Assembly: GCA_002725995.1 (NCBI GenBank)
Contig: PBRQ01000037.1
Span: forward strand, 54,861 to 118,860
Direction: 5' to 3'
Length of the DNA stretch: 64,000 nt
Source: Gammaproteobacteria bacterium
GTDB lineage: Bacteria; Pseudomonadota; Gammaproteobacteria; Pseudomonadales; Azotimanducaceae
Numbering within the stretch: position 1 is the first letter of the stretch; every line of letters starts with the position of its first letter. The position numbers were made by a program, and so were the translations under genes. The notes below the pieces were generated by a model. The model saw only the letters and a list, made by a program, of their open reading frames with translations, did no database searches and had not been told where the DNA came from. Shown piece after piece: positions 40,936 through 62,217 of this stretch.

Positions 40936-42150
40936 TTGAGTCTTATTGAAGCGCAAAAAAGGGTGTTGTCTGGAATGCGCCCCACCGGGCGGCTGCACCT
41001 GGGCCAATACCGTGGTGTTCTCAAAAACTGGATTCGCTTGCAGCATGAATATGACTGCATGTTCTTCGTCGCAGACTGGCATGCGCTGACAACCCACTAT
41101 GAAGAGTCGGAAGTCATCGAAGACAGTGTCTGGCAAATGGTGATTGACTGGCTGGCATCTGGCGTTAACCCTGGTTCAGCAACCCTGTTTATCCAGTCCC
41201 GCGTACCGGAACACGCGGAGCTGCACCTGCTGCTCTCCATGATTACGCCACTGAGCTGGGTAGAGCGCGTACCATCCTACAAGGACCTGATGGCCAATTC
41301 CAATGACCGTGACCTGGCGACCTATGGCTTTCTTGGGTATCCGGTACTGCAAAGCGCGGACATCCTCATTTATCAGGCTGGCAACGTCCCGGTTGGGGCT
41401 GACCAGGTGCCGCACGTCGAAATGACCAGGGAAATAGCCCGCAGGTTTAACCATATCTATGGCAAAACCCCCGGATTTGAGGATTTGGCAAAGGAGGCAA
41501 TAAAAAAGCTGGGCCGCAAGAATGCCAAAATATACAAGTCTCTGCGCCGAGACTATTTGGAGCAGGGTAACAGGGAAGCGTTGGAAGAGGCCCAGGCGAT
41601 AATATCTGAGCAGCAGAATGTGTCCCTCGGTGATCGGGACCGCCTGTTTGGTTATCTAGAAGGTGGCGGCAAGGTAATTTTACCCGAGCCAGAATCACTA
41701 TTAACTGAAGTGTCCGTTATGCCAGGACTGGACGGCAAGAAGATGTCGAAATCCTATGGCAACACCATTGCTTTGCGAGAAGATCCAGAATCTGTTGAGA
41801 AGAAAATAAGGATCATGACCACTGATCCGGCAAGGGTAAAACGTGATGATCCTGGAGACCCTACGATATGTCCTGTATTCGAGCTGCACAAAATCTACTC
41901 CGATGATGAAACAAGGAACTGGGTGCGGGAAGGTTGTACCACCGCCGGAATTGGCTGTGTTGATTGCAAGAAGCCCGTGGTCGAAAAGGTGCTGGAGGAA
42001 CTTCAGCCCATCCGTGAGCGTGCAAGGCAATATGAGGAGAATCCGGACCTGGTTAAAAGTATCGTTGCTGAAGGGTGTGAACGGGCGAGAACGATAGCCA
42101 GGTCAACTCTGGAGGAAGTAAGATCGGCCATGGGGCTGGACTATAGGTAA
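40936..42150 (+). CDS. trpS: Tryptophanyl-tRNA synthetase
   Basis: VLSGMRPTGRLHLGQYRGVL, GLDGKKMSKSYGNTI. Confidence 0.97.
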   Translation: MSLIEAQKRVLSGMRPTGRLHLGQYRGVLKNWIRLQHEYDCMFFVADWHALTTHYEESEVIEDSVWQMVIDWLASGVNPGSATLFIQSRVPEHAELHLLLSMITPLSWVERVPSYKDLMANSNDRDLATYGFLGYPVLQSADILIYQAGNVPVGADQVPHVEMTREIARRFNHIYGKTPGFEDLAKEAIKKLGRKNAKIYKSLRRDYLEQGNREALEEAQAIISEQQNVSLGDRDRLFGYLEGGGKVILPEPESLLTEVSVMPGLDGKKMSKSYGNTIALREDPESVEKKIRIMTTDPARVKRDDPGDPTICPVFELHKIYSDDETRNWVREGCTTAGIGCVDCKKPVVEKVLEELQPIRERARQYEENPDLVKSIVAEGCERARTIARSTLEEVRSAMGLDYR

Positions 42151-42214
42151 GAGATAAAGCCAGAGTAAGAGATAAAGCTAGATAGAAGGTAAAGCCAGAC
42201 AAAAAGGTAAAGCA
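42147..42214 (+). repeat. Short degenerate tandem repeat between trpS and scpA
   Basis: GTAAGAGATAAAGCCAGA / GTAAGAGATAAAGCTAGA / TAGAAGGTAAAGCCAGA / CAAAAAGGTAAAGCA. Confidence 0.85.
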
Positions 42215-43081
42215 ATGGAAGAGCCAATCAAAGAAGCGGAAAGAGACGCCGGGGCAAAACAGAGTGAAATGCCATTTGCGGTCGTTGATGGCACACCCAT
42301 GACCCAGATTCCGCTGGATTTATATATTCCCCCGGATGCCCTCGAAGTGATCCTGGAAGCTTTTGAGGGGCCACTTGACCTTCTTTTATACCTGATAAGG
42401 CGTCAGAACCTCGATATCCTTGAAATTGAGGTTGCAGAAATTACGCGTCAATACATGGAATATATAGATCTTATGTCGGATATTCAGTTTGAGCTGGCAG
42501 CAGAATATCTGGTTATGGCCGCGGTATTGGCTGAGGTAAAGTCAAGGATGCTGCTGCCACGGCTAGTGGAAGGTGTGGAAGATGAAGAGGATCCGAGAGC
42601 GGAGTTGATTCGCCGTCTGCAGGAATATGAGAGATTCAAGACCGCTGCAATGGATATAAACGAATTGCCCAGAATGAATCGTGATTACTGGGTAGCCGGC
42701 GCTGATGCACCGGTGATGAATCAGGAAAAGCCCTTGCCTGAAGTTCAGTTGCAGGAAATGCTGGTTGTATTGGCGCAGGTTTTGAAAAGAGCGGAGAGTT
42801 ATTCCAGTCACCACGTGCAGCTTGAACCGTTGTCGACCAGGGAGCGAATGTCTCAGATCCTCGGAAAAGTTTCTGCATCCGGTGATCAGTTTGTTCCCTT
42901 CATTGCCTTGTTCGATCTAGAGGAAGGCAGGACGGGACTTATAGTGACCTTCATCGCCATGATGGAGCTGATCAAGGAATCTCTGATTGAAATTGTACAG
43001 GCAGACCCCTTCGCGCCGATTCATGTTAAGGCTCGGTCAGCAAGTTCGGATGCCACTATAAAATATGAAGATGAAGACTAA
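42215..43081 (+). CDS. scpA: Segregation and condensation protein A
   Basis: EAFEGPLDLLLYLIRRQNLDILEIEVAEITRQYMEYI. Confidence 0.96.
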   Translation: MEEPIKEAERDAGAKQSEMPFAVVDGTPMTQIPLDLYIPPDALEVILEAFEGPLDLLLYLIRRQNLDILEIEVAEITRQYMEYIDLMSDIQFELAAEYLVMAAVLAEVKSRMLLPRLVEGVEDEEDPRAELIRRLQEYERFKTAAMDINELPRMNRDYWVAGADAPVMNQEKPLPEVQLQEMLVVLAQVLKRAESYSSHHVQLEPLSTRERMSQILGKVSASGDQFVPFIALFDLEEGRTGLIVTFIAMMELIKESLIEIVQADPFAPIHVKARSASSDATIKYEDED

Positions 43082-44004
43082 TGACTGAGTTGAAGCAAAT
43101 TGTTGAAGGCGCAATCATGGCTGCAGACCAGCCCCTGAGCATTGATCAAATGATTTCGCTGTTTGACAAAGACCAACCGGCGCGAGCGGATGTTAAGGAA
43201 GTATTGAGCGAGATCGAATCGGATTGCGAAGGCCGGGGTTTCCAGTTGAAAGAAGTTGCTTCTGGATACCGTTTCCAGGTACGTCGGGAGTATGCGGAGT
43301 GGGTTGGCCGTCTCTGGGAAGAAAGGCCTCCAAGGTATTCACGTGCACTACTGGAAACACTGGCATTAATCGCCTACAAACAGCCCATTACTCGTGGCGA
43401 TATTGAAGACATTCGCGGTGTTGCCGTATCTACGAACATTATGCGCTCCCTGCTTGAAAGAGAGTGGGTGAGAGTCGTGGGCCATCGGGACGTGCCCGGT
43501 CGTCCAGCCATCTACGCAACGACCAAAACCTTCCTGGACTATTTTGACCTCGATAGTCTTGAGGCCTTACCAACCCTGTCAGAGATTAAAGACCTCACCC
43601 AGGGGACTGAAGAACTTGACCTGGAAGGTGGTATTGTTGAGGCTCGAACCCTTGAACTTGGTATAGATGACCTCGGTGAGACCAGCGGTATTGAAGATTC
43701 TGACTTGGATAAGGTCACAGAGCAGGTAAATGCCATTCAGGACAACATACGAAACCTGTTTGATCAAGATGGGGAAGATGATGAAGACGGGGAAGATGAT
43801 GAGGCTGATGAAGATTCATCACTGGATATCCAGACGCTGGTAAGCACTGTCCCTGACCAAATATTGGACGCTGCCTTTGCCGGCGACTCACCAAATAGTG
43901 ATGTCCCCGACGACAATGGTTCGCCGGACAATGTCTCGCCAGACGATGAAGCGCTTAGGGATTCCGGTGAATCACCTGCTGCTGATACCGATCTGGAATC
44001 CTAG
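43081..44004 (+). CDS. scpB: Segregation and condensation protein B, with acidic repetitive C-terminal tail
   Basis: LLETLALIAYKQPITRGDIEDIRGVAVSTNIMRSLLEREWVRVVGHRDVPGRPAIYATT. Confidence 0.96.
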   Translation: MTELKQIVEGAIMAADQPLSIDQMISLFDKDQPARADVKEVLSEIESDCEGRGFQLKEVASGYRFQVRREYAEWVGRLWEERPPRYSRALLETLALIAYKQPITRGDIEDIRGVAVSTNIMRSLLEREWVRVVGHRDVPGRPAIYATTKTFLDYFDLDSLEALPTLSEIKDLTQGTEELDLEGGIVEARTLELGIDDLGETSGIEDSDLDKVTEQVNAIQDNIRNLFDQDGEDDEDGEDDEADEDSSLDIQTLVSTVPDQILDAAFAGDSPNSDVPDDNGSPDNVSPDDEALRDSGESPAADTDLES

Positions 44005-56283: not shown

Positions 56284-56589
56284 ATGACACTGCTCAAAAA
56301 GTGGCTGTTCAGACTCGTGTTGTTAGCCATATTTACGGTTGCTCTATTGCTGGCGTCTGATAACAGCACAGAAGTGCCGCTCACATTTCTTGATTATCAG
56401 ACCCCCGTGTGGCCAATCTCCTGGTGGATGCTCGCTGCCTTTGTAATTGGTGTTCTATTTGGGACCCTTCTCAATACCTGGTCGAATACCAAGTTGCTTC
56501 TTAGCGCAAGAAATGCGAAGAGACAGGCAATAAAGTCCGCTCAGGAATTGAATGACGAGGCCAGCTTACTTACTTCTGATCCGAATTAA
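56284..56589 (+). CDS. lapA: Lipopolysaccharide assembly protein LapA
   Basis: Two TM segments, ~100 aa, between ihfB and lapB. Confidence 0.9.
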   Translation: MTLLKKWLFRLVLLAIFTVALLLASDNSTEVPLTFLDYQTPVWPISWWMLAAFVIGVLFGTLLNTWSNTKLLLSARNAKRQAIKSAQELNDEASLLTSDPN

Positions 56590-56607
56590 GTATATTGTTG
56601 TCCTCCC

Positions 56608-57774
56608 ATGGAAACCTGGCTCCTCTATGTATTGATTGTCGCCGCTATCGGCTCTGGCTGGTGGCTCGGTCGCCGTGAAAGAAGCAAGAATACTGACTCC
56701 ATCGGTTCAAAATACTACCAGGGGCTAAATTTCCTGCTGAACGAGGAGCCGGACCGGGCGGTTGCCTCCTTTATCGATGATCTCGAAGTTAACCCTGAGA
56801 CCCTGGAAACTCACCTGGCACTGGGTGGACTTTTACGTAGAAGAGGTGAACTCGATAAAGCCGTGGTAGTTCACGAGAATATTCTAAATCGTGCGACCCT
56901 GGATAAAGAAAGCATGCAGCAGGTACAACTGGAGCTTGCGCGGGACTATTTGCTGGCGGGCCTGCTTGACAGGGCAGAGGAACTGTCTGTGGAGCTTGAG
57001 GGTGCCAGTTCGTCGGTTAAGAATGATAGCTACAAGATCACGTTAGAGATCTACGAACGCGAAAAAGAATGGGCCCAGGCCATTGAAGTCGCAAAACTCC
57101 TCGCCATTGGTGATCGTACGGAAAAATATGAAAAGGCAATTTCTCACTATTATTGTGAAATTGCAGAGGCCTATTTAGGGAAAAGCAATAATGAGGAAGC
57201 CCGCTCCGCGGTGAGTGAGGCTATCGGTCATGACGCCAACAACCCGAGGGCTTCACTGATACATGGTCAGGTCGATATCAAGGAACAACTGTTCGACGAT
57301 GCAATCAGAGTGCTGCAGAAAATCAGGGATCAGGATGCAGTCTATGTCCCGGAATCCCTGGAGGCCCTCGCAATTGCATACGAAGGAAGTAGTCAGCCAA
57401 GTGAAGAATTCCGTGCCTACTTGACCAGTTGCCTTGGAGTCACACCCTCCATATCCATAGTATTGACTATTGCTGCAAGTATCCGAGATGAACTGGGTGA
57501 TGAAGCTGTAGCGAAGTTTGTTGCCAATCATCTCAAGAAAAACCCAACGATTCGAGGCTTGACACAGCTCATTGATCTGCACATGGATAACACGGAAGGG
57601 ATCGCAAAAGAAAACCTGTCGATACTGCGCAGTTTTACCGAGGCACTGGTCGCTGACAAGCCAGCATACCGCTGCAATAACTGCGGCTTTGAAGGCAAGA
57701 AGATGCGCTGGCATTGTCCCAGCTGCAAAGACTGGTCAACTATAAGACCCATATTCGGCCTGGAAGGCGAGTAA
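56608..57774 (+). CDS. lapB: Lipopolysaccharide assembly protein LapB (TPR + rubredoxin-like C-terminus)
   Basis: TM + TPRs; C-terminal YRCNNCGFEGKKMRWHCPSCKDWSTIRP. Confidence 0.95.
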   Translation: METWLLYVLIVAAIGSGWWLGRRERSKNTDSIGSKYYQGLNFLLNEEPDRAVASFIDDLEVNPETLETHLALGGLLRRRGELDKAVVVHENILNRATLDKESMQQVQLELARDYLLAGLLDRAEELSVELEGASSSVKNDSYKITLEIYEREKEWAQAIEVAKLLAIGDRTEKYEKAISHYYCEIAEAYLGKSNNEEARSAVSEAIGHDANNPRASLIHGQVDIKEQLFDDAIRVLQKIRDQDAVYVPESLEALAIAYEGSSQPSEEFRAYLTSCLGVTPSISIVLTIAASIRDELGDEAVAKFVANHLKKNPTIRGLTQLIDLHMDNTEGIAKENLSILRSFTEALVADKPAYRCNNCGFEGKKMRWHCPSCKDWSTIRPIFGLEGE

Positions 57775-58125
57775 TCCCCGCTGGCTTATTTCGCCTTTTC
57801 TGATGAATTAGACGGTCATCCCGACCACATAAGCCCCCATCTCAACCAAACAAATCTGTCATCTCGCCTGTTCTGAGCAAGGCTGAAGGAACTGGAGGTC
57901 ACCTTGTGACCGAAGTGGAGAGATCTCTGTTTCATCAACTCTCTATTCCTTCGACAAAGTTGAATTCGTACGAGCGCTGATGGTGGTGCCTCACACCACC
58001 CTGGGATATTCGCTAATTCTCCTGACCTAACCTGGTGATAAGTTGATAACGCTTTTAAAGCAACGCTGAATGAAGCCATGCTGAACAAAGCAACACTGAA
58101 ATTTAATCTGGGAAAGGAGAATTAC

Positions 58126-58443
58126 ATGAAAGCTAGAAATCTATTCTTGTCTTACGTCGCTGTACTGGCGGTATGCTGGAGTAATGTACTGTTTGCAGAC
58201 AACGTTCTTGTAGACAACACTGATCAAGTTGAATCTGTGCAATCGGAAGTAATCGTCAACGTCAATCAGGCAGATGCGGAAACACTGGCATCTGTCTTGA
58301 CCGGCGCCGGCATCAGTCGTGCGCAAGCCATCATTGCTTATCGCAAGAAGAACGGTAAGTTCTTTTCAGCCGAGGAACTGTCAGCCGTTCGCGGTATCGG
58401 CAAGTCAACGATTGAAAAGAATGCAGGCAGGATCGTTGTATAA
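58126..58443 (+). CDS. ComEA-like helix-hairpin-helix secreted protein
   Basis: Signal peptide, VNVNQADAETLASVLTGAGISRAQAIIAYRKKNGKFFSAEELSAVRGIGKSTIEKN. Confidence 0.9.
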   Translation: MKARNLFLSYVAVLAVCWSNVLFADNVLVDNTDQVESVQSEVIVNVNQADAETLASVLTGAGISRAQAIIAYRKKNGKFFSAEELSAVRGIGKSTIEKNAGRIVV

Positions 58444-58629: not shown

Positions 58630-61600
58630 ATGAGCTCTACCGTACATATTATTCTGGGAATGCATCGCAGTGGAACGAGCCTGGTCTCGCACCTGGTTCA
58701 TCGTCTGCTATCCATTGAATCTGACTCTCTGCTTGAATCTGGAAAGGACAATCCTCAGGGCTTCTGGGAAGATACAGAGGTCTTACAACTCAATATTAAT
58801 CTGCTCAGGAGTCTTGGCGTCGAATGGAATAGTCTGTCTCAATTTGATATTTCAGCGTCGGATCTAGACAATTTGCTGGGTGAATTTGGTAACGAAGCAT
58901 CAGCTATTCTAAAAAGAAAGTTACATGGGGCAGTGACTTGGTCGTTCAAGGATCCTAGGACAACACGATTCCTGGCCTTTTGGAAGAAAGTCCTTGAAAT
59001 AGACAACATTCAAGGGAAGTACATTTTTTGCAATAGGAACCCTCTAGCAGTAGCGCATTCACTCAAGGATCGAAATGGCTTTTCACTGGAATATGGGCTG
59101 ATTCTATATGGCTTATACGTTGAAACTGCAATTACGGAAATATTAGATGATGATCTGCTAGTCATTGACTATGAAACGATGATGGGCGGCTCCCTCGAGC
59201 CTCTATCAGAATTGGCAACATTTCTGGGAGTTTCGGCAAATTCTGATGAACTGCATAAACTATCCGAAAGTATTGTGGATGTAAGTTTAGACCACCACAA
59301 GCGTCACCGAAGAACAAACAATCTCCCAAAGGTGCCCTTCAGTTGGGCAGCGCTGCTTAGTGGCATGAGTAGCGGTGCCCTAACGAAGGCTGATGCTCAT
59401 TCACAAATACAGCGAATTAGCAAAGATGAAAGTACGACACGAGAGATCTTGTCATTAGCTGACAACTTCAGAATGTCTGGTGAGCTTAAAGGGCAGCAGC
59501 TTGAGACCACTACACAAAAGAATGAGAAGCTCGTTCGTGACAATGGTCAGTTAAGAGCAGATGTAATTTCATTGAAAGCAGGAGTGGATCTCCAGAATCA
59601 AAAGGTTGAAGAGCTGGAAGTAGATTTAGGCAAGGCAGCGAGCAAGGTTGAAGAGCTGGAAGTAGATTTAGGCAAGGCAGCGAGCTGGGAAGAAGAGCAA
59701 TCCCGGGTGATTGGGGATCTGAAAAAGCAGGAAATACGGCTAAATCAAAAGGTTGAAGAGCTGGAAGCAGATTTAGGCAAGGCAGCGAGCTGGGAAGAAG
59801 AGCAATCCCGGGTGATTGGGGATCTGAGAAAGCAGGAAATACGGCTAAGGGAAGATATTTCTAAGTTAACGCGTGACCTGAAAGTGGAGATATCCAGTTT
59901 AGAGGTTCAAGCCGCAAAAATAGCTAAGCTGGAGACATCTCTAGAGGATGCATCTAAGTGGAGTGAGAACAAGGAAAAGGATATTGCTGAGTTGGAAACA
60001 TCCTTAGAGAGTGCATTGAAATGGAATGAAAAGCAGAGAATAGATATTTCGGAACTAAACATGCAAATTGGAACGCTGTCAAAGAAACATGAAGATTCCG
60101 AGAGGAAGATAGCTAACCTTTCCAATAAAATTGATGAAAAGTCCGTTGAACTTGAAGAAACGCAAAGGGAAAATGAAAGTGAATTGCGTCGTGTCTGGGA
60201 AATAGCAGAACAACACAGGCTTGACTATCTCGAAGTGACATCGAGCCGCTCTTGGAAGTATACAGCACCGATAAGGTCGCTCCGCGCCGTCATCTTAAGG
60301 AGGCCAAGGGTCGGACCAGGTGCTATCAAACGATCAATTGTCTTTCTACTGGATTTGTTTCCAGATAAGTGGGAACTCACAAATAGGCTCGTGCGCTTAA
60401 AGCAAATTATGTCAGGTAAAGCGGTTGAGAGTGATTCGCTTGATACCAAGGAAGGGCACCTGGAAATCATCTCGAACAGGCAAAGCGCCAATTTGCTCCT
60501 CAGTATTGAGGATATTGCTACTTTTCCAGCAATTGATATTTCAGTGGTCAGCTATAACAATGGGAAGTTCATTCCGGCATTCATGGCTTCTCTGCTGTCT
60601 CAATCATACCCGACGGAACTGATTAATCTTGTTGTGGTAGACAACACTTCGACAGATGATACTTTATCTATCTGGAAGAAGTTCCACGATCAACATGTGG
60701 ACCAATTTCATAGTTTTGAGATTCTAGTAAGACCCAACCTCGGTTTTGGATGTGGACATCATGCTGGGTTTGGGCAGACTAGCTCGGAGTTTGTTCTTGT
60801 TAGCAATCTTGATATAGAGTTCACGGGGCAGGCCCTTCAAAAACTACTTTCCTTTGCAGTGCAGGACCAGGAAAGTACAGCACAGTGGGAGTTGCGCCAG
60901 CAACCCTATGAGCACCCCAAATTTTATGACCCCGTAACCTTGGAAACTGCCTGGTCGTCTGGCGCTTGTTTTTTAGTCAGACGATCAGCATATGAAGATA
61001 TTGGTGGCTTTGAGAAACGGATTTTTCTATATGGTGAAGATGTTGAGCTTTCATTTCGACTTCGCGATCGAGGCCACAAGGTAAAGTACGTACCAAGTGC
61101 AGTTGTGTATCACTACACCTACGAAGAGGAAAATGAGGTTAAGCCGCTACAATTTTATGGCAGTACCCTCGCAAATTCATTGCTAAGAATAAGGTACGGA
61201 AATATCGGAGATATTATGGGGATGATTCCAATGTATTCCGACTTATTTGCATCTCATGGCTTTCGCAGCGAAATAGGTAAAGGGCTGATAAAAAATAATA
61301 CTCTCAAGTTGGCAGCTCTATTCTTTCCATTTTTGGTGAGCAGAAAGCACAGTAATAGGAAATTTTCCTTTCGTGGATGGGACTATGAGATGTCGCGGGA
61401 AGGTGCGTTTTATACTTTGCCCACAAGTAATTCAGATAATTTTCCACTGGTCAGTATCATTATCAGAACATATGAGAATCGAGACTATTGGCTGCGGGAA
61501 GCATTGAATTCCGTATTGAATCAATCGTATCCCAATATTGAAGTCATCATTGTGGAGGATGGTTCAGATTCCCAGGTCGATTTTGTTGCTAAAATGCAGC

Positions 61601-62217
61601 ACCGTTATCCCACCAGGACTCTAGTATATGAATCCTTGCCGAAGAAAGGTCGATGTTACTCAGCCAATATTGCCCTGGAAATGGCTAAAGGAGAAATGGT
61701 TGGCTTCCTAGATGATGATGACCTGTTCTTTTCTGATCATGTTGAAACCTGTGTTGCTGAATTGGTGAACGACAATACTGTACACGCGGTTTATTGCTTA
61801 GCCTGGGAAGTGGAAACTAAACTACATGGAGAATCTTTAACGGAAGGGTATGAGGAGATCACCTACAGGAACAACGATATACTTGGACAGGAATTCAATA
61901 GAGAAGCTCTGAAGGCTAGAAACTGCTTTCCCATTCAGGCGGTTTTGTTTCGCCGGGAGCTTTATGAGAAGTATGGTGGTTTGAATATCGAATTGGATAA
62001 TCTTGAAGATTGGAATCTATGGATTCGGTATTCGGCTGAATATGACTTCAAACTTGTACCCAAAACAACATCAATATATCGAACCCCTTTTTCCAAGGAG
62101 GACCGGTTAAAACGTCAGGAGATTCTGGATGATTATCTGCCGCTCGCAATCTCAATAAACAGTAAGGACCTCCAGAGGATTGAGAATGACAAACCCAGCA
62201 GTAATTTTTCACTTTAG
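58630..62217 (+). CDS. Multidomain protein: sulfotransferase-like N-terminus, coiled coil, two GT2 glycosyltransferase domains
   Basis: HIILGMHRSGTSLVSHLVHRL (PAPS-binding-like motif); heptad-rich region; ISVVSYNNGKFIPAFMASLLSQSYPTELINLVVVDNTSTDDT; VSIIIRTYENRDYWLREALNSVLNQSYPNIEVIIVEDGSD...GFLDDDDLF. Confidence 0.88.
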   Translation: MSSTVHIILGMHRSGTSLVSHLVHRLLSIESDSLLESGKDNPQGFWEDTEVLQLNINLLRSLGVEWNSLSQFDISASDLDNLLGEFGNEASAILKRKLHGAVTWSFKDPRTTRFLAFWKKVLEIDNIQGKYIFCNRNPLAVAHSLKDRNGFSLEYGLILYGLYVETAITEILDDDLLVIDYETMMGGSLEPLSELATFLGVSANSDELHKLSESIVDVSLDHHKRHRRTNNLPKVPFSWAALLSGMSSGALTKADAHSQIQRISKDESTTREILSLADNFRMSGELKGQQLETTTQKNEKLVRDNGQLRADVISLKAGVDLQNQKVEELEVDLGKAASKVEELEVDLGKAASWEEEQSRVIGDLKKQEIRLNQKVEELEADLGKAASWEEEQSRVIGDLRKQEIRLREDISKLTRDLKVEISSLEVQAAKIAKLETSLEDASKWSENKEKDIAELETSLESALKWNEKQRIDISELNMQIGTLSKKHEDSERKIANLSNKIDEKSVELEETQRENESELRRVWEIAEQHRLDYLEVTSSRSWKYTAPIRSLRAVILRRPRVGPGAIKRSIVFLLDLFPDKWELTNRLVRLKQIMSGKAVESDSLDTKEGHLEIISNRQSANLLLSIEDIATFPAIDISVVSYNNGKFIPAFMASLLSQSYPTELINLVVVDNTSTDDTLSIWKKFHDQHVDQFHSFEILVRPNLGFGCGHHAGFGQTSSEFVLVSNLDIEFTGQALQKLLSFAVQDQESTAQWELRQQPYEHPKFYDPVTLETAWSSGACFLVRRSAYEDIGGFEKRIFLYGEDVELSFRLRDRGHKVKYVPSAVVYHYTYEEENEVKPLQFYGSTLANSLLRIRYGNIGDIMGMIPMYSDLFASHGFRSEIGKGLIKNNTLKLAALFFPFLVSRKHSNRKFSFRGWDYEMSREGAFYTLPTSNSDNFPLVSIIIRTYENRDYWLREALNSVLNQSYPNIEVIIVEDGSDSQVDFVAKMQHRYPTRTLVYESLPKKGRCYSANIALEMAKGEMVGFLDDDDLFFSDHVETCVAELVNDNTVHAVYCLAWEVETKLHGESLTEGYEEITYRNNDILGQEFNREALKARNCFPIQAVLFRRELYEKYGGLNIELDNLEDWNLWIRYSAEYDFKLVPKTTSIYRTPFSKEDRLKRQEILDDYLPLAISINSKDLQRIENDKPSSNFSL
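59602..59853 (+). repeat. In-frame coding tandem repeats in the coiled coil (42-bp and 105-bp units)
   Basis: KVEELEVDLGKAAS at 59602-59643 and 59644-59685; 105-bp units 59644-59748 and 59749-59853 nearly identical. Confidence 0.93.

Follow-up and report, generated by a model that had tools for sequence, protein, structure and literature searches.

Can a sulfotransferase that sits on the end of a coiled-coil ruler terminate the chains of a surface polysaccharide? This question is raised by a gene near one end of a 64,000-nucleotide stretch of DNA (here called the window) from Gammaproteobacteria bacterium (Pseudomonadales; Azotimanducaceae; assembly GCA_002725995.1, contig PBRQ01000037.1, positions 54,861 to 118,860 of the forward strand). 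As the initial annotation had proposed, and as Pfam and fold searches bore out, the encoded protein consists of a sulfotransferase-like domain, a coiled coil, and two glycosyltransferase family 2 (GT2) domains, in this order (Table 1). We consider it probable that this protein is a one-piece terminator, ruler, and polymerase for a surface polysaccharide, probably an O-antigen, with the sulfotransferase as the terminator. The two C-terminal GT2 domains would extend the chain at the membrane, and the coil, roughly 40 nm long, would set a constant spacing between them and the N-terminal domain. A nonreducing end reaching that domain would be capped, probably with sulfate from 3'-phosphoadenosine 5'-phosphosulfate (PAPS), polymerization would stop, and the capped chain would leave via a Wzm/Wzt ATP-binding cassette (ABC) transporter. 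Recombination of near-identical whole-heptad repeats would change the rod length with the register kept, which may permit stepwise evolution of chain length.

The structure of the N-terminal domain was predicted by AlphaFold2 (AF2) with a predicted local distance difference test (pLDDT) score of 90.6, and its best fold match in the PDB was a tyrosylprotein sulfotransferase with 3'-phosphoadenosine 5'-phosphate (E value, 4e-6). In sulfotransferases, a P-loop binds the 5'-phosphosulfate, a lysine serves in catalysis, and an Arg and a Ser eight residues apart contact the 3'-phosphate of PAPS. The corresponding motifs were found in the window protein (Table 1), and N41, G44, and E47 were further residues invariant in 48 homologues. 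The domain is thus like the P-loop PAPS sulfotransferases (tyrosylprotein sulfotransferases and Sulfotransfer_3) in fold and PAPS-binding motifs, although it diverges from the tyrosylprotein sulfotransferases (17 to 22% identity) and is fused to a coil and glycosyltransferases.

Several observations weigh against sulfation by this protein. Its Pfam Sulfotransfer_3 score was 19.4 bits, under the curated cutoff of 27, which some homologues pass (e.g., L106 at 30.9 bits); the assignment of the window domain rests on fold and motifs. Besides, neither an adenosine 5'-phosphosulfate (APS) kinase gene nor a CysD/CysH-type gene was found in the source genome (G000, 87% complete), making PAPS supply the weakest link for sulfation in the source organism. 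The PAPS-making gene may fall in the missing sequence, and PAPS use is plausible in G000 because at least four other sulfotransferase-family genes are present there. A real APS kinase was likewise lacking in G003, G253, and G441 and was present in all other sulfotransferase-coil genomes checked; in G040 (locus L036; G040:C1, ~2687708 to 2688169), only 93 bp separate its gene from the sulfotransferase-coil gene, both being on one strand, and it is likely a dedicated PAPS supply.

These data also bear on the alternative that the N-terminal domain terminates chains without being a sulfotransferase, either as a P-loop enzyme (a transferase or kinase-like) that adds another cap or as an inactive domain. 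The four genomes without a PAPS-making gene would fit it, as would the subthreshold Pfam score and the P-loop kinases (PFKFB3 and others) among the lower-ranked fold matches. However, the P-loop sequence RSGTS is without the kinase lysine, the Arg/Ser pair spaced for PAPS binding is invariant, nearly all other hosts encode a real APS kinase, and G000 carries other sulfotransferase genes; we regard this alternative as improbable.

The coil that a ruler would need is continuous. A register scan revealed a single heptad register from residue ~253 to residue 525, amounting to ~39 heptads and extending beyond the repeats, and the strong 3.5-residue Fourier peak over residues 267 to 508 was reached by no shuffle. 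AF2 placed helix at residues 267 to 319 and 340 to 508, the latter unbroken, at low confidence; the model of the full protein, computed with nine relatives, was poor (mean pLDDT, 52) and was used for helix content only. All repeat units are whole heptads within this one register, in agreement with the earlier claim that they keep the heptad phase.

The initial annotation had also described 42-bp and 105-bp whole-heptad DNA repeats and a diverged 21-aa repeat in the coil, and we recovered all of them. Tandem Repeats Finder (TRF) reported 2.0 copies of a 42-bp unit at positions 59602 to 59685 (100% match) and 2.0 copies of a 105-bp unit at 59644 to 59848 (98% match). In unit-by-unit comparison, the two 42-bp copies were identical, and the full 105-bp units (59644 to 59748 and 59749 to 59853) differed at 5 of 105 positions, 4 of them at codon position 1 or 2, with the frame intact. 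The suggestion that the gene could be phase variable was not sustained: units that are multiples of 3 and of 21 change the rod length without turning the gene off, unlike the frame-breaking units (not a multiple of 3) of a contingency locus. An artifact of short-read assembly might in part account for the repeat number, given that G000 is in 102 contigs and that in G003 the contig stops within an 84-bp repeat of the homologue, leaving that gene incomplete. Nevertheless, the 105-bp copies differ from each other with an open frame, and the same repeat pattern occurs in complete, finished plasmids, so that we hold such an artifact to be very unlikely.

A search of GTDB genomes found no close relatives of the whole protein, and thus the copy number of the window gene could not be compared. 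Relatives of the N-terminal domain, in contrast to the whole protein, were many: sulfotransferase-coil proteins, with or without glycosyltransferase modules, occur in Gammaproteobacteria, on alphaproteobacterial plasmids, and at 80 named loci in several phyla. In a first set, 19 of 51 proteins had tandem arrays (14 with a period divisible by 21 bp), as did 18 of the 80 loci of a second set (13 with such a period). Over the pooled 131 homologous genes, 27 of 37 arrays were multiples of 21 bp, whereas 1/7 of in-frame units should be (binomial P of ~1e-15, for related genes that are not fully independent, with at least one genome in both sets). The exceptions mostly had periods of 33, 66, or 96 bp, which would fit hendecads. 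Other open reading frames (ORFs) of the same loci contained only ~6 true arrays among ~870, after apparent background arrays had been discounted, most of which were short sulfotransferase genes or frames read antisense to the homologues themselves.

Strain-level variation was seen in a homologue on plasmid pB of Cereibacter sphaeroides: relative to strain 2.4.1, the gene is exactly 21 bp shorter in KD131 and exactly 42 bp longer in IL106, both changes lying inside the coil. The homologue on plasmid pA had one length across six strains, and that of A. brasilense showed no length variation, its four genes being identical and hence uninformative. Between more distant homologues, gap lengths depend on the alignment, and our use of them is confined to close pairs and to the group of L031, L036, and L039; the coils of L036 and L039 differ by eleven gaps, every one of 7 residues. 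In C. sphaeroides DSM 158 and 2.4.1 substrain H2 (L115 and L117), the pB gene differs from that of 2.4.1 by indels that break the frame, reflecting either inactivation or sequencing error.

Hence, the earlier proposal that whole-heptad recombination alters the rod length is upheld by the pB homologue and the family-wide 21-bp periods, whereas the constant pA homologue lends it nothing. An effect of such changes on the glycan would follow if the coil acts as a ruler. The strain-level variation comes from the C. sphaeroides homologue, the source species being represented by a single genome. The 21-bp bias is no proof of selection, as slippage between heptads could favor the same periods. Indeed, the repeats might be purely mechanistic: coil DNA resembles itself every 21 bp, slippage between similar heptads lands in register and predicts multiples of 21 bp, and glycan length is not under selection. 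The hendecad and other periods and the six pA genes of equal length agree with this explanation, which is also compatible with a ruler. Against it, coils are on average less variable in length than other regions (PMC5082667), yet they are highly variable in this sulfotransferase-coil family, and the association with ABC export described below is left unexplained. We judge a purely mechanistic origin to be somewhat unlikely.

Homologues of the window gene are associated with ABC transporters. A Wzt-type ATPase was encoded within ~10 kb at 20 of 47 loci (17 with Wzm) versus 1 of 20 control GT2 loci (none with Wzm; Fisher P = 0.003), and in the second set it was near the gene at 41 of 80 loci. 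The wzt gene is often 0 to 34 bp from the homologue, a PF14524 gene adjoins the homologue in G023, G089, G428, and G461, and many directly adjacent Wzt proteins are long enough for a cap-reading carbohydrate-binding module (CBM). Other observations point the other way. Some of the adjacent Wzt proteins lack the length for a cap-reading module; the sole Wzt_C gene of G000, paired with Wzm, is on a different contig; and an attempt to tie the window protein to this Wzt by similarity was abandoned, as Wzt genes of the G000 type have a sulfotransferase alongside in just 1 of 30 cases. We take the Wzm/Wzt_C pair of G000 as compatible evidence only. In its C-terminal part, the G000 wzt gene at L104:9186-10577 (G000:C16) has many ambiguous residues.

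Genetic data exist for one relative. WbbB of Aeromonas salmonicida (1122 aa; L180:4047-7415) starts with a homologous sulfotransferase-like domain, not called a sulfotransferase by the authors (PMC4483657), and adjoins Wzt. Like the window protein, it has a coil and glycosyltransferase modules, but its polymerase is GT4 plus GT2 and its coil is shorter and without tandem DNA arrays. In-frame deletion of wbbB or wzt abolished the O-antigen, which otherwise forms a homogeneous band, and the loss was complemented (PMC4483657). The reported O-antigen structure is without sulfate (PMC4483657), which counts against a sulfate cap, although a single terminal sulfate might escape such structural work. 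A second sulfotransferase-like gene lies between wzt and wbbB (L180:3202-3960) and is conserved in the species (PMC4483657).

The same observations enter into a further alternative, namely, that the sulfotransferase domain modifies repeat units throughout the chain without capping it and that the coil is a tether or oligomerization scaffold whose length variation is tolerated but not used. There are known marine capsules that carry sulfate on the backbone and are exported by ABC transporters (PMC11641403, PMC11766843), several adjacent Wzt proteins are below CBM length, and in-phase duplications would be equally harmless to a tether. On the other hand, one unbroken register of this length resembles a rigid rod rather than a tether, many adjacent Wzt proteins do reach CBM length, and the lack of reported repeat-unit sulfate in A. 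salmonicida fits a single terminal sulfate and not backbone sulfation. We thus regard decoration as unlikely and favor capping.

In its layout, the window protein agrees with known coiled-coil rulers: the putative terminator is at the far end of a long coil, and the polymerase glycosyltransferases are at the other end (two GT2 domains in G000) or in a separate protein (relatives G002 and G004). In WbdD of Escherichia coli O9a, to which the initial annotation had drawn an analogy, and in that of Klebsiella pneumoniae O3, an N-terminal terminator also stands on the coil tip, the coil length sets the O-antigen length (PMC3482155; PMC5082667), and insertions or truncations in the coil shift the modal length (PMC5082667). 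WbdD differs in that its terminator is a methyltransferase plus kinase and that polymerization is left to another protein, WbdA. The analogy is well supported by the architecture, the Wzm/Wzt link in homologues, and the whole-heptad length change seen family-wide and among strains for one homologue, but K. pneumoniae O7 ORF6 is a closer parallel than WbdD. ORF6 joins a terminator, a coiled coil, and two GT2 modules in one polypeptide and belongs to an ABC-transporter-dependent O-antigen system, although it has a methyltransferase-kinase terminator (for a methylphosphate cap) and an extra CBM-like fold (PMC11231755). K. pneumoniae O12 WbbB (PMC11231755) likewise unites terminator, coil, and polymerase, but its terminator is a GT99 β-3-deoxy-D-manno-oct-2-ulosonic acid (Kdo) transferase and its polymerase modules come from other glycosyltransferase families. 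Neither of these known terminator chemistries (methyltransferase and Kdo transferase) was matched by the window N-terminal domain in Pfam and fold searches, and therefore we place the protein as a variant rather than a member of those subfamilies. The main text of PMC11231755 contains no word beginning with "sulf-", and sulfate is also absent from PMC9445017; a literature search covering few subscription journals found no sulfate cap or sulfotransferase ruler.

Behind the coil, a motif of the form SxSW(R/K)xTxP(L/I/V)R was present in 16 of 48 homologues, including the window protein, versus 2 of 2010 other ORFs, and both of the latter sit at short sulfotransferase loci. That this motif docks the protein to the membrane or to the polymerase is a guess. 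In G452 (L100:9800-12257), a short sulfotransferase-coil ORF with 8.8 copies of a 21-bp repeat overlaps a next ORF beginning with SRSWRVTNPLR, and the fused gene appears to have been split at the repeat or the junction.

The gene order ahead of the window gene is presumably pheA-hisC-tyrA-cmk-rpsA-lapA-lapB-comEA (names from homology), and a domain search found LapB and HHH domains in the upstream genes. Three further genomes of the genus, G002, G003, and G004, have the identical order with a sulfotransferase-coiled-coil gene immediately after it, whereas other genera of the family mostly have different genes at this site. Compared with the window, LapB of G003 is 91% identical and the sulfotransferase domain only ~34%. 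G002 and G004 encode a sulfotransferase-coil protein on its own (472 and 535 aa, respectively), with a gene for an 888-aa glycosyltransferase next to it downstream, a WbdD-like split layout with a sulfotransferase-like domain. Fused and split forms at one site of a genus parallel the fused (O7 and O12) and split (O3) Klebsiella systems (PMC11231755). Since the window ends with its contig (C29) 1.8 kb past the gene, most of the polysaccharide locus of the source genome (3.24 Mb) is missing. Elsewhere in the window, an 18-bp tandem repeat of ~3 copies lies between two ORFs (42147 to 42213), and another 18-bp repeat encodes an acidic D/E-rich stretch (43761 to 43802) inside ORF 43081-44004.

Table 1. 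Features of the sulfotransferase-coil-GT2 gene and its neighbors (window positions)
Feature	Position	Strand	Basis
lapA, lapB, and comEA-like genes adjoining the polysaccharide locus	56284..58443	+	Gene-order comparison with 3 other genus genomes
Whole gene: sulfotransferase-like/coiled coil/GT2/GT2 protein, 1195 aa	58630..62217	+	Single open frame
P-loop sulfotransferase-like domain, residues 1-245, predicted terminator	58630..59364	+	AF2, fold match, motifs
5'-Phosphosulfate-binding P-loop LGMHRSGTS, residues 9-17	58654..58680	+	G10, G15, T16, S17 invariant in 48 homologues
KDPR, residues 107-110, putative catalytic lysine	58948..58959	+	K107, P109, R110 invariant in 48 homologues
RNPLAVAHS, residues 136-144, 3'-phosphate-binding Arg and Ser (PAPS signature)	59035..59061	+	R136, S144 invariant in 48 homologues
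Coiled-coil rod, residues ~253-525, one heptad register	59386..60204	+	Register scan and Fourier; AF2 helix
42-bp unit, copy 1 (2 heptads)	59602..59643	+	TRF and direct comparison
105-bp unit, copy 1 (5 heptads); begins with the second 42-bp copy	59644..59748	+	TRF and direct comparison
105-bp unit, copy 2 (5 heptads)	59749..59853	+	TRF and direct comparison
Diverged 63-bp (3-heptad) pair, residues 430-450/451-471	59917..60042	+	DNA identity 42/63 (67%)
SRSWKYTAPIR motif at coil-polymerase junction	60244..60276	+	Motif scan
GT2 domain 1, residues 631-860, predicted polymerase module	60520..61209	+	Domain search
GT2 domain 2, residues 942-1150, predicted polymerase module	61453..62079	+	PF00535/PF13641/PF10111
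Next gene, GT2-like protein, cut by contig end	62293..64000	+	ORF list and domain search

Coiled-coil O-antigen rulers have been worked out in a few Enterobacteriaceae, and the caps named for them are methyl, methylphosphate, and Kdo (PMC11231755). We tentatively raise the possibility, which we hold with less confidence than the reading of the window protein itself, that sulfate is a widespread and undescribed chain-terminating export cap, added by sulfotransferases on the tips of coiled-coil rulers that evolve by whole-heptad recombination and so tune glycan length in heritable steps. If this is true, a sulfate-capped version of the ruler is spread over many phyla, and one sulfate per chain would be easily missed in routine structural work, as perhaps happened in A. 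salmonicida. Furthermore, natural coils differing by exact heptads between strains would make the evolution of a ruler directly measurable, since each heptad of ~1 nm should then correspond to a defined change in chain length.

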